Below, in pieces: positions 47,257 through 63,397 of a stretch of 64,000 nt of DNA (position 1 is the first letter of the stretch; every line of letters begins with the position of its first letter). The notes below the pieces were generated by a model. That model did not search any database. It worked only from the letters and a program-made list of their open reading frames with translations, and was not told the origin of the DNA. The translations under genes and the position numbers were made by a program. The stretch comes from Aliiroseovarius subalbicans (GTDB lineage Bacteria; Pseudomonadota; Alphaproteobacteria; Rhodobacterales; Rhodobacteraceae). The stretch covers positions 372,001-436,000 of the forward strand of contig NZ_JALBYQ010000004.1 in the NCBI RefSeq assembly GCF_022678625.1, given 5' to 3'.

Positions 47257-47640
47257 TTACGCGATGATGATTGTGATAAGCGACAGGGCGGCGGCGCAGA
47301 TCAGGGCGGCAATGCCCGAGCGCTTCACCCGACGCTGACCCAGACCCGACCCGGTGTCCCACACCAGGTGGCGGATGCCCGAACAGAAGTGATACCAGAT
47401 ACCCAGCATCGAGAAGAACATGATGATGTCGCCCAGCCATGAGGTCATGAACCCGTTCGCAGTGGCGAAGTATTCTTCCGACGTTGCGGCGGACAGGAAC
47501 CACCAGGTGATCAGCATTGCCGAGACCGCCATGCCCACGCCGGTGGCCCGGTGCGTGATCGACATGACGGCATTCAGCGGCATGCGATAAACCTGGAGGT
47601 GGGGTGACAACGGGCGGTTGCCCTGGTTCACGTTGGCCAT
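47257..47640 (-). CDS. sdhC: Succinate dehydrogenase cytochrome b556 subunit
   Basis: Anchor of 127 aa. PLSPHLQVYR and SITHRATGVGM form the conserved N-terminal quinone/haem region, and HFCSGIRHLVWDTGSGLG includes the haem-ligand His near residue 84. Three helices. First gene of sdhCDAB; about 125 bp upstream are the twin GTGATCAC operators. Confidence 0.96.
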   Translation of the reverse strand: MANVNQGNRPLSPHLQVYRMPLNAVMSITHRATGVGMAVSAMLITWWFLSAATSEEYFATANGFMTSWLGDIIMFFSMLGIWYHFCSGIRHLVWDTGSGLGQRRVKRSGIAALICAAALSLITIIIA

Positions 47641-47732
47641 AAAAAGCCCCCTTCGTGTCTGTTTCGACTTTGTGATAGCAATAAAGGAAATTTCCGTAGA
47701 GTCACGCCAGTTCAGCCCTTGAGGCTGCGGAA

Positions 47733-47744
47733 ATTGCGCTAACG
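47733..47744. promoter_or_regulatory. LacI-type palindrome in the sdh promoter
   Basis: On the plus strand ATTGCGCTAACG; arms ATTGC and TTAGC meet at a central CG. Its centre (47737.5) is exactly 31 bp from the centre of the nearer GTGATCAC site. The same motif with the same distance is seen upstream of sucC. Candidate CceR-type site. Confidence 0.5.
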
Positions 47745-47764: not shown

Positions 47765-47793
47765 GTGATCACGGGTATTCGAGATGTGATCAC
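47765..47793. promoter_or_regulatory. Twin GTGATCAC palindromes upstream of sdhC
   Basis: Two identical GTGATCAC cores, each inside ATGTGATCACG, lie at 47765-47772 and 47786-47793, 21 bp apart centre to centre (two helical turns). The nearer one is followed, on the strand of sdhC, by ATAAT and then TTGAAA, a possible -35 box, which would suit an activator. The farther one ends 9 bp before the stop of the DUF4344 gene. The shape is that of a GntR/FadR-type operator. Confidence 0.75.
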
Positions 47794-53850: not shown

Positions 53851-53879
53851 GTGATCACACTTTTAAATGGTGTGATCAC
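53851..53879. promoter_or_regulatory. Twin GTGATCAC palindromes upstream of sucC
   Basis: GTGATCAC occurs at 53851-53858 and at 53872-53879, 21 bp apart centre to centre, in AT-rich flanks (ATATGTGATCACAC and TGTGATCACAAAA). It is the same spacing as upstream of sdhC. The pair lies about 107 bp before the sucC start. A GntR/FadR-type regulator is the probable ligand. Confidence 0.78.
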
Positions 53880-53901
53880 AAAATGACGGAAATTGCCCGA
53901 T

Positions 53902-53913
53902 ATTGCGCTATCA
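53902..53913. promoter_or_regulatory. LacI-type palindrome in the suc promoter
   Basis: ATTGCGCTATCA; centre 53906.5, exactly 31 bp from the nearer GTGATCAC centre, as in the sdh promoter. Nine bases (ATTGCGCTA) are identical with the sdh copy. The stretch may also overlap the -10 region. Confidence 0.5.
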
Positions 53914-53985
53914 ACTGAAAAAACCGTTTCTTTAGACAATCCTGTTGTGCATGTTCGGTGAAACCCAACTGGACAGGATGATCTC

Positions 53986-55179
53986 GTGAATATCCATGAA
54001 TACCAGGCGAAGGCCCTTCTGAAATCCTACGGCGCCCCCGTTTCCGACGGACGTGCCGTGCTGAAAGCCGAAGACGCCAAGACCGCCGCAGGAGAAATGG
54101 ACGGGCCGTTGTGGGTCGTCAAAGCGCAAATCCACGCAGGTGGCCGCGGCAAAGGCAAATTCAAAGAAGCCGACGCTGGCGACAAAGGCGGCGTGCGCCT
54201 GACCAAATCGGTGGAAGAAGCCGCCGAGGAAGCCAAGAAGATGCTGGGTCGCACCCTGGTCACGCACCAGACCGGCCCCGCTGGCAAGCAGGTCAACCGC
54301 ATCTACATCGAAGATGGCTCGGGCATCGAGCGTGAGCTGTATCTCGCGCTGCTGGTCGATCGCCAGACCTCGCGCATCTCGTTCGTTTGCTCGACCGAAG
54401 GCGGCATGGACATCGAGGAAGTTGCAGCCGCAACGCCTGAGAAGATCCTGTCGTTCAGTGTTGATCCCGCCACCGGGTATCAGGGCTTCCACGGTCGTCG
54501 CATCGCGTTCTCGCTGGGCCTGGAAGGTCAGCAGGTCAAGCAATGCGTGAAACTGATGGGTCAGCTGTACCAAGCCTTCACCGAGAAGGACATGGAGATG
54601 CTGGAGATCAACCCGTTGATCATCACCGACGAAGGCAACATCAAGGTGCTGGACGCGAAGGTGAGCTTCGACGGCAACGCGATCTATCGCCACCCGGACA
54701 TCGCCGAGCTGCGCGACACCACCGAAGAAGATCCCAAAGAGCTTGAGGCGTCGAAATACGACCTGAACTACATCGCTCTGGACGGTGAAATCGGCTGCAT
54801 GGTGAATGGCGCGGGTCTGGCCATGGCGACGATGGACATCATCAAGCTTTATGGCGCCGAGCCAGCGAACTTCCTGGACGTTGGCGGCGGTGCCACCAAA
54901 GAAAAGGTCACCGAGGCGTTCAAGATCATCACCTCTGACCCGAACGTCAAAGGCATCCTGGTGAACATCTTCGGCGGCATCATGCGCTGTGACGTCATCG
55001 CCGAGGGCGTGGTTGCGGCCGTGAAAGAAGTGGGCCTTCAGGTTCCGCTGGTCGTCCGTCTGGAAGGCACCAACGTGGAAGCCGGCAAGGACATCATCAA
55101 CAATTCCGACGTTGATGTGATCGCCGCGGACAACCTGTCCGACGGCGCCGAGAAAATCGTCAAGGCTGTGAAAGGGTAA
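53986..55179 (+). CDS. sucC: Succinyl-CoA synthetase beta subunit
   Basis: ATP-grasp subunit of succinyl-CoA synthetase, 397 aa. Starts with GTG; AGGA stands before it and the product begins [29 protein letters not shown] is the nucleotide-binding segment, and [13 protein letters not shown] with [10 protein letters not shown] near 320 form the active-site region with sucD. Promoter upstream with paired operators. A lipoprotein gene, not sucD, comes next. Confidence 0.97.
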
Positions 55180-62725: not shown

Positions 62726-63379
62726 TCAGGCGACCAGCATTTTCAACCCCTGCGTCACATCCGTGCGCACGGCCAGTCGGAGCGCTGGTTCATCCCCGGC
62801 TGCCAAGGCCGCCAGGATCATCCGGTGATGTTTTTGTAGGTCGGTCCGATTGCGACCTTCGTAAAGTGACCGCATCGTCGGACCCAGTTGCAACCAGACG
62901 GTTTCAGCCATCGCCAGCATCGCCGGGGCCTGCGCGCGCAGATACAGCGTGCGGTGAAACTCAAGGTTCGTGCGCAGATACCCGACCGCGTCTTGTTTCG
63001 CCACGAACTCGGAAACGCGCGCGTTGATCGAACGAAGGCGATCAATCAGGGCGATATGGGCACGGGGCAGGGCACGCGCGGCCAGTTCCGGCTCTAACAA
63101 GGCGCGCACAGCGGCAAGTTCCTCAATCCGATCCGCGGCCAGGTCGGGGGCCGTGACCCGGCCAGACGACGACAAGGTCAGCGCGCCCTCGGCGGCTAGG
63201 CGCCGCACCGCTTCGCGGGCGGGGGTCATCGACACGCCAAATTCCTTGCCAATGCCCCTTAGAGTCAGCGCCTGACCGGGGTCAATGTCCCCATGCATGA
63301 TCCGTGCACGCAAGGCACGATAGACCTGTTCATGGGCGGAACCGGTGGCGTCTGCGGGCTGTTTTGCGTGTGTTTGCAT
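62726..63379 (-). CDS. GntR-family (FadR/FCD type) regulator, AkgR-like candidate
   Basis: A 217-aa transcription factor. The winged helix-turn-helix is at about 15-80 (VYRALRARIMHGDIDPG, GVSMTPAREAVRRLAAEG), and the FCD ligand-binding domain follows (RALLEPELAARAL, NLEFHRTLYL and HHRMILAAL with metal-site His residues). I use the ATG at 63379; a TTG at 63415 would also open the frame. It stands next to the suc-lpd operon, and GTGATCAC, the palindrome repeated at sdh and suc, lies 10 bp upstream of this start. By family and context it may be AkgR, an activator of TCA genes in Rhodobacter sphaeroides. This identity is inferred. Confidence 0.8.
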   Translation of the reverse strand: MQTHAKQPADATGSAHEQVYRALRARIMHGDIDPGQALTLRGIGKEFGVSMTPAREAVRRLAAEGALTLSSSGRVTAPDLAADRIEELAAVRALLEPELAARALPRAHIALIDRLRSINARVSEFVAKQDAVGYLRTNLEFHRTLYLRAQAPAMLAMAETVWLQLGPTMRSLYEGRNRTDLQKHHRMILAALAAGDEPALRLAVRTDVTQGLKMLVA

Positions 63380-63389
63380 AAACTGCAAT

Positions 63390-63397
63390 GTGATCAC
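63390..63397. promoter_or_regulatory. Single GTGATCAC palindrome before the GntR gene
   Basis: TGTGATCACA in AT-rich flanks, 10 bp upstream of the GntR start and 14 bp after the stop of the upstream metallopeptidase gene. So close to the start codon, binding would block translation initiation or a short promoter, which suggests autorepression. Confidence 0.65.

Follow-up and report, generated by a model that had tools for sequence, protein, structure and literature searches.

The window analyzed here, a 64,000-nucleotide stretch of the Aliiroseovarius subalbicans genome, carries the promoters of the sdh and suc operons and a gene for a GntR/FCD regulator. On the minus strand, sdhC (47257–47640), called as the first gene of the sdh operon, is preceded by two exact copies of the palindrome GTGATCAC, a distal one at 47786–47793 and a proximal one at 47765–47772, and by a third, CceR-like element, TTAGCGCAAT (47733–47742, centre 47737.5), which matches 7/8 fixed positions of TTnGCGCnAA. 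A G precedes it, giving GTTAGCGC, which has one half in common with GTTAGCGCTAAC. On the same strand, the family pattern points to a GTGACT at an offset of 59 past the proximal site (47700–47705) as the putative −35 and, 16 bp from it, to a TATTGC (47678–47683) as the putative −10, where the family consensus at the same spacing is TAWWAA.

On the plus strand, sucC (53986–55179), coding for the succinyl-CoA ligase beta subunit, is the first gene 3′ of the suc promoter. This promoter carries an exact, family-conserved distal GTGATCAC (53851–53858), a proximal copy 21 bp from it (53872–53879), and a third element, ATTGCGCTAT (53902–53911, centre 53906.5), whose weak CceR-like match of 6/8 is probably not significant. 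The stretch from 53880 to 53930 corresponds to the region in which the suc promoters of the family have A/T tracts about every helix turn; at its end, as read from the window, a GTTTC (53926–53930) occupies the position of a conserved GTTTA/CTTTA-type element of the relatives, tentatively a possible −35. The regulator gene gntR lies on the minus strand at 62726–63379 (Pfam PF00392 and PF07729), and a single GTGATCAC (63390–63397, no strand assigned) ends 10 bp 5′ of its ATG, where it is probably an autoregulatory operator. The letters confirm the geometry read by the first-pass annotation, with pairs spaced by 21 bp and third elements 31 bp past the proximal site in both promoters.

Only the sdh and suc promoters carry the exact pair GTGATCAC-N13-GTGATCAC within the 3.53-Mb genome (two occurrences), and its reversed pattern, used as a control, has no match; eight further places match the pair with at most two mismatches. 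Among 292 genomes of the order Rhodobacterales, all of one family in the collection searched, 282 contain the exact 21-bp pair, typically twice, and none contains the reversed pattern. Five of the other ten carry an exact 20-bp pair; G110, G227, G141, G231, and G232 have no exact pair at 19–22 bp. A class-wide sample of 385 genomes gave six matches (4/5 genomes of the same family and 2/380 others) and one match of the reversed control (G364), the pair being nearly absent elsewhere in the class.

Promoters were chosen by gene position, to avoid selecting for the motif, from 13.3 kb around the sucC start in the 149 genomes where SucC was located (78 discovery genomes from 72 genera, 70 hold-out genomes, and the window); in 16 of these, sdhC was not found within the 13 kb retrieved, leaving 133 sdh promoters. 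Counted without deduplication, the pair stands upstream of sucC in 147/149 genomes and of sdhC in 127/133, is missing from two and six promoters, respectively, and is spaced by 20 or 21 bp only. In the discovery set with the window, it was found at 77/79 sucC promoters (72 exact at 21 bp, 3 exact at 20 bp, and 2 at 21 bp with one mismatch) and 67/71 sdhC promoters (55 exact at 21 bp, 9 exact at 20 bp, and 3 at 21 bp with one mismatch), and in the hold-out set at 70/70 (all 21 bp) and 60/62 (51 at 21 bp and 9 at 20 bp). A named set (L040–L070 and the window), which may overlap these genomes in species, gave 31/32 for sucC and 20/22 for sdhC with one mismatch per site allowed. A sucC match without an upstream pair was seen in Roseovarius sp. 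217 (L056), and Roseovarius mucosus (L058) has the pair. At 49 other SucC loci (L071–L119), mostly of other orders but including L114, labelled Jannaschia, and L117, labelled Rhodobacteraceae, no 21-bp-spaced match upstream of sucC came closer than four mismatches.

When all exact GTGATCAC copies lying at most 300 bp apart in 78 loci were considered, 126 distances were 21 bp, 12 were 20 bp, and one was 42 bp, with no remaining distance occurring more than twice. The 13-base spacers are variable, with a bias for A at −21 and T at −17 in suc, and the pair is flanked by TTT outside the distal site and AAA outside the proximal one. Triple GTGATCAC copies at 21-bp steps were found in the suc promoters of five genomes from two genera (G046, loci L235 and L316, and G253, L327; G155, L329, G171, L320, and G175, L318). 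Ten genomes have three pairs, and in five the third exact pair is elsewhere in the genome (G183:C2:97850, G097:C27:302191, G252:C6:130097 (L321), G032:C4:412756 (L322), and G086:C7:1186717 (L323)). In two genomes without either pair, the upstream regions share an 11-bp word (L261) and a 9-bp word (L272), respectively; in the former, G110 of genus g57, the word GAATGCGACGG is common to the sdh and suc upstream regions.

The GntR protein of the window, AkgR-like, is the likely binder of GTGATCAC, since this palindrome is reported for AkgR and precedes the same gene in relatives, and since most genomes without the pair have no GntR or a diverged one. The consulted part of PMC6365646 gives GTGATCAC among the AkgR binding sites of Rhodobacter sphaeroides, and that of PMC4344238 gives RSP_0981 as the predicted regulator of sucCD, sdh, and the 2-oxoglutarate dehydrogenase genes. 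A GntR match at E ≤ 1e-30 was obtained in 148/149 genomes, including G110 (52% identity) and G141 (35%). GntR is absent or diverged (≤52% identity) in four of the five pairless genomes (51–52% identity in G110 and G227, 35% in G141, and no GntR in G232), the exception being G231, which retains GntR at 72% identity without an exact pair. Another exception, G023, has both pairs without a good GntR match in a near-complete genome. What would be expected of an AkgR regulon, that is, GTGATCAC operators upstream of both sdh and suc and a co-occurring GntR gene, was found, these two genomes being the exceptions, and across the family the pair goes together with a GntR gene and with the sdh and suc operons.

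Some further observations concern the regulator genes themselves. The congener G020 does have a good GntR match, and its absence from G023 could reflect an assembly gap or a replacement. In genus g57, the GntR proteins (L290 of G110 and L291 of G227) have a similar recognition helix despite their 51–52% identity, and there is no GTGATCAC pair. A second GntR, ~40% identical to that of the window, occurs in several genomes of the family (L294 and L295).

Exact GTGATCAC copies also lie near the gntR start, between 120 bp upstream and 45 bp inside, in 23 of the best-scoring 30 gntR loci of the 149 genomes, a sample biased to near relatives; 20 of the 23 begin 10–21 bp before the extrapolated start codon. 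The other seven loci have no exact upstream copy, and two of these have a one-mismatch site. In the named set, leaving the window aside, 5/12 matched gntR loci had an exact copy; several of these 12 matches were partial. A single GTGATCAC placed 10–21 bp before the start fits the expectation for autorepression, and the window GntR probably represses its own gene from the copy at its start codon.

AkgR reportedly activates TCA genes (sdh, suc, and 2-oxoglutarate dehydrogenase), and the window GntR is probably an orthologue of this protein, RSP_0981. From the R. sphaeroides locus numbers, the RSP_0981 gene would presumably lie beyond sdh, unlike the window gntR, which adjoins lpd. In G073, gntR lies past sdhB, separated from it by ~6 kb that hold several ORFs, an arrangement that neither proves nor excludes orthology.

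GTGAC was found in the expected stretch of 122 of the 127 pair-bearing sdh promoters, with a TAWWAA-like consensus 16 bp on, and we infer these to be the −35 and −10; where a promoter had several GTGAC, the one with the best −10 match was taken. The offset of this −35 from the proximal site was 56–60 in 95 promoters, 47–50 in 7, 69–71 in 12, and 79–81 in 8 (n = 122), with no selected −35 between these classes. Counting every GTGAC at offsets 20–130 added 12 scattered places, none used more than twice (22, 23 twice, 37, 43, 54, 86 twice, 90, 103, and 116 twice). The five promoters without an exact GTGAC were left out of the count; allowing one mismatch, G139 has it at 60, G048 and G054 at 47, and G090 at best at 38, and G037 has no candidate.

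Taken by genus, the data reduce to 64 lineage values, of which 15 fall outside the default class (56–60), and each of these 15 differs from it by one or two 10.5-bp turns to within ~2 bp; the best-fitting period of the offsets is 10.75–11. Parsimony gave at least 13 changes of spacing class for sdh and at least 11 for suc, counts that rest on one FastTree of two proteins (Mdh and SdhA) and that tree error can inflate. No phasing is seen in the distance that separates the sdh −35 from the start codon (R 0.25 vs 0.86 for pair to −35). In suc, the proximal site ends 96–102 bp before the start codon in 37 promoters and 105–117 bp before it in 110, and the conserved [CG]TTT-like element is at 34–36 in the short promoters and 44–46 in the long ones, one whole-turn step apart. 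The distance from the operator to the inferred core promoter in sdh (122/127), and to the putative promoter element in suc, thus varies by whole turns only, as class I activation would have it, and such whole-turn shifts suggest an activator that has to occupy the helix face used by RNA polymerase.

Among the default-class sdh promoters, the 10 with 20-bp pairs, which come from five genera, were compared with the 85 with 21-bp pairs. The −35 is 59.6 vs 58.5 bp from the proximal site (p = 0.0003 before correction for relatedness) and 79.6 vs 79.5 bp from the distal site. With 20-bp pairs, the gap between proximal site and −35 is thus ~1 bp longer and that between distal site and −35 unchanged; this is suggestive only of the 1-bp difference being made up for in sdh.

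Downstream of the proximal site, A/T tracts peak near positions 11–12, 22, 32, and 42–43 in sdh and suc alike, with an A/T fraction of up to 0.99 at the peaks and down to 0.14 in the troughs. The amplitude of this phasing exceeds that of all 1000 rolled controls, and the phasing recurs in a replicate set (25 sdh and 30 suc) and a hold-out set (42 sdh and 37 suc), both deduplicated by 40-bp similarity. The best period is 10.25–10.5 bp for sdh, and the best single period for suc is 9.5 bp because its last tract (48–50) comes early. Phasing is much weaker upstream of the pair but still above controls. No clear 10-bp correlation was seen upstream of four neighbouring genes (n = 44–77), not all of which need contain promoters; a fifth neighbouring-gene set had n = 2 only. 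That the A/T phasing is a by-product of CceR sites was rejected, since promoters lacking a ≥7/8 site show it to the same degree.

As for the CceR-like sites, the genome of A. subalbicans, which has four LacI-family genes, contains exact GTTAGCGCTAAC at two places, immediately 5′ of edd (L185) and of zwf (L186), in agreement with the motif and the targets given for CceR/GapR in the consulted parts of PMC4344238 and PMC4052901; this consensus is hence in use at known targets here. On contig C10 (L193), a phosphofructokinase-family gene preceded at ~28 bp by GTTCGCGCTAAC is a further candidate CceR target. Two genome-wide search patterns were discarded, as WTTNGCGCNAAW gave 27 matches vs 23 in the reversed control and GTTNGCGCNAAC with one mismatch 187 vs 233. 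By reading, neither third element of the window has the inverted repeat [AGT]GTT N6-8 AAC[ACT] of CceR/GapR (PMC4344238, in part): that of sdh has the GTT half and ATT where AAC is expected, and that of suc has neither half at N6.

In the family, sites with ≥7/8 matches at most 80 bp downstream of the pair were found in 24/67 sdh promoters (shuffle mean 6.3, maximum 14; 5 upstream) and 15/77 suc promoters (shuffle mean 6.7, maximum 13; 7 upstream), all 200 shuffles being below the observed values. Half-exact sites (CGCTAAC/GTTAGCG) were found downstream in 12/67 sdh promoters vs 5 upstream (column-permuted mean 0.55) and in 5/77 suc promoters vs 5 upstream (column-permuted mean 0.71). Some CceR-like sites are therefore real, the case being clearer for sdh than for suc; they concern a minority of promoters, and their distance from the pair is variable (11–13, 19–23, 29–32, 39–41, and beyond, mostly near 11, 21, 31, 41, and 52 bp). 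The literature on sdh as a CceR target differs between sources, each consulted in part: PMC11323563 places sdh and 2-oxoglutarate dehydrogenase in the CceR regulon of R. sphaeroides and sdh outside that of Paracoccus denitrificans, PMC4344238 predicts sdh as an RSP_1663 target, and the GapR targets of PMC4052901 include mdh, not sdh or suc. Our best reading is that a CceR-type LacI site would be an optional second input in some lineages, including the window sdh promoter. A GntR and a LacI protein may sit side by side in that promoter, but sdh and suc promoters do not conserve such an arrangement.

Taken together, we consider it probable that sdh and suc are controlled from a tandem site for an AkgR-like GntR/FCD activator that is phase-locked to RNA polymerase, CceR being optional. 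The two GTGATCAC palindromes, two helix turns apart, would form the tandem operator of the activator encoded nearby, and two GntR dimers would bind it adjacently on one face of the DNA. From about −80 to −120, these dimers might assist RNA polymerase by same-face contacts, the helically spaced A/T tracts in the stretch between operator and promoter serving either as DNA bends or as docking sites for the alpha-subunit C-terminal domains. A CceR-type site placed within the phased stretch would add the second input in some lineages, and the same GntR would repress gntR through the single GTGATCAC by its start codon.

A more far-reaching version is doubtful, though worth stating: the whole region from the pair to the −35 would be one phase-locked nucleoprotein scaffold, with an AkgR tetramer (a hexamer at the triples), A/T tracts each turn, and CceR between the tracts in some lineages, all elements shifting, coming, and going by whole turns only. 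Somewhat less likely still is that the CceR sites are themselves selected for their face, their distance from the AkgR pair being held at whole turns (one, two, three, or more) by a contact with AkgR or the polymerase. Half-exact sites speak for it in the discovery set, where 16/17 deviate from a multiple of 10.4 bp by at most 2.0 bp and 17/17 by at most 2.2 bp, and in the replicate, where 7/7 deviate by at most 2.0 bp. However, at the 2.2-bp tolerance, set on the discovery data and fixed before the hold-out, only 4/5 hold-out sites were in phase, the miss being at 24; composition alone predicts an in-phase share of 0.72 for sdh and ~0.5 for suc; and common descent probably accounts for several of the sites (g12 relatives). 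Moreover, a null made by column permutation, in which the A/T phasing is retained, has the same concentration of CceR-site phase (fraction with R ≥ observed 0.70), so that the CceR phase may be secondary to the A/T phasing. We accordingly set aside CceR phase-locking as a separate effect, inseparable as it is from the A/T phasing and with one miss in five.

FCD GntR proteins are often repressors. The pair could then be a repressor or loop operator, or be bound by a regulator other than the window GntR, and G023, with pairs and no good GntR, and G231, with GntR and no exact pair, would sit well with this. We find it improbable, as a pair upstream of the inferred core promoter at whole-turn spacing is the signature of upstream activation, pair loss goes with GntR loss or divergence in G110, G227, G141, and G232, and GTGATCAC is reported, in the part of the source consulted, for AkgR, reportedly an activator of TCA genes. 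Equally improbable in our view is that the whole-turn spacing reflects intrinsic curvature or UP-element phasing only, with no contact between activator and polymerase. The A/T tracts found at about every turn from the pair to the promoter, replicated and seen with or without CceR-like sites, favour it, but curvature alone would leave the phase between pair and −35 unfixed, and the A/T phasing is much weaker upstream of the pair, though above controls.

The module proposed by the first-pass annotation, with fixed distances of 21 bp within the GntR pair and 31 bp from there to a LacI (CceR) site at sdh and suc alike, is true of the window itself and draws on the enrichment of CceR-like sites downstream of the pair, the exact GTTAGCGCTAAC at edd and zwf, and the R. 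sphaeroides regulon of PMC11323563 (in part), but is very improbable as a conserved element, given that the third site is present in a minority of promoters at variable distance, that half-exact suc sites are as frequent upstream as downstream, and that PMC11323563 (in part) leaves sdh out of the P. denitrificans regulon. In genus g12 (L216 and L278), whose SucC is most similar to that of the window, the third site is 30 bp from the pair in sdh and 21 bp in suc. None of the five genomes with a ≥7/8 site in both promoters has it at equal distances, and at ≥6/8 equal distances occur in 3 of the 67 genomes with both promoters anchored, the window included among the three, vs 2.4 expected from re-pairing of promoters. 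Equal distances being no commoner than chance, the 21/31 geometry of the window is not a conserved module. The annotation had also held that the equal spacing of the palindromes is unlikely by chance and points to a composite element on nearly the same face. These views hold for the pair, which is an operator common to sdh and suc across genera, probably for GntR, with a same-face geometry, and which survives the comparison of homologous promoters; they fail for the shared third element, a 6/8 match in suc, and for a LacI site fixed 31 bp on.

The family thus offers a natural experiment on helical phasing, in which spacer bases turn over and the face is kept through ~13 spacing changes, as counted by parsimony on a single tree. 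It also gives a rule for finding AkgR targets (a pair at 20–21 bp with a whole-turn offset to GTGACW-N16-TAWWAA at sdh), makes an activator-polymerase contact at Rhodobacterales TCA promoters directly testable by spacer insertions, and suggests that AkgR and CceR could act jointly without a fixed joint site.

Compared with known systems, AkgR (RSP_0981) of R. sphaeroides is alike in being a GntR regulator with the GTGATCAC motif and sdh and suc as targets; the tandem pair at 20–21 bp, the triples, and the whole-turn locking to the promoter are unmentioned in the consulted parts of PMC4344238 and PMC6365646, and Imam 2015 may have the tandem arrangement. CceR/GapR (RSP_1663), of the LacI family, shares the GTTAGCGCTAAC-type palindrome, present here as exact copies at edd and zwf (PMC4052901 and PMC4344238, in part), whereas the sdh/suc site is degenerate, limited to a minority of lineages, and variable in distance. 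A full-text search for GTGATCAC returned no Rhodobacter title among the matches listed, and a literature search that did not cover the primary AkgR/CceR paper gave no description of the tandem pair-promoter architecture or of the way it evolves. The parts are hence of known kinds (AkgR, CceR, and class I activation), and the architecture and its evolutionary behaviour are apparently new, as far as this search goes. The closest mechanistic likeness is to CRP-type class I activation in E. coli, in which upstream sites also act only on the RNA polymerase face and can be moved by whole turns; here the protein family is another, the sites are paired and 8 bp long, and the rule emerges from natural variation within a family rather than from engineered spacers.
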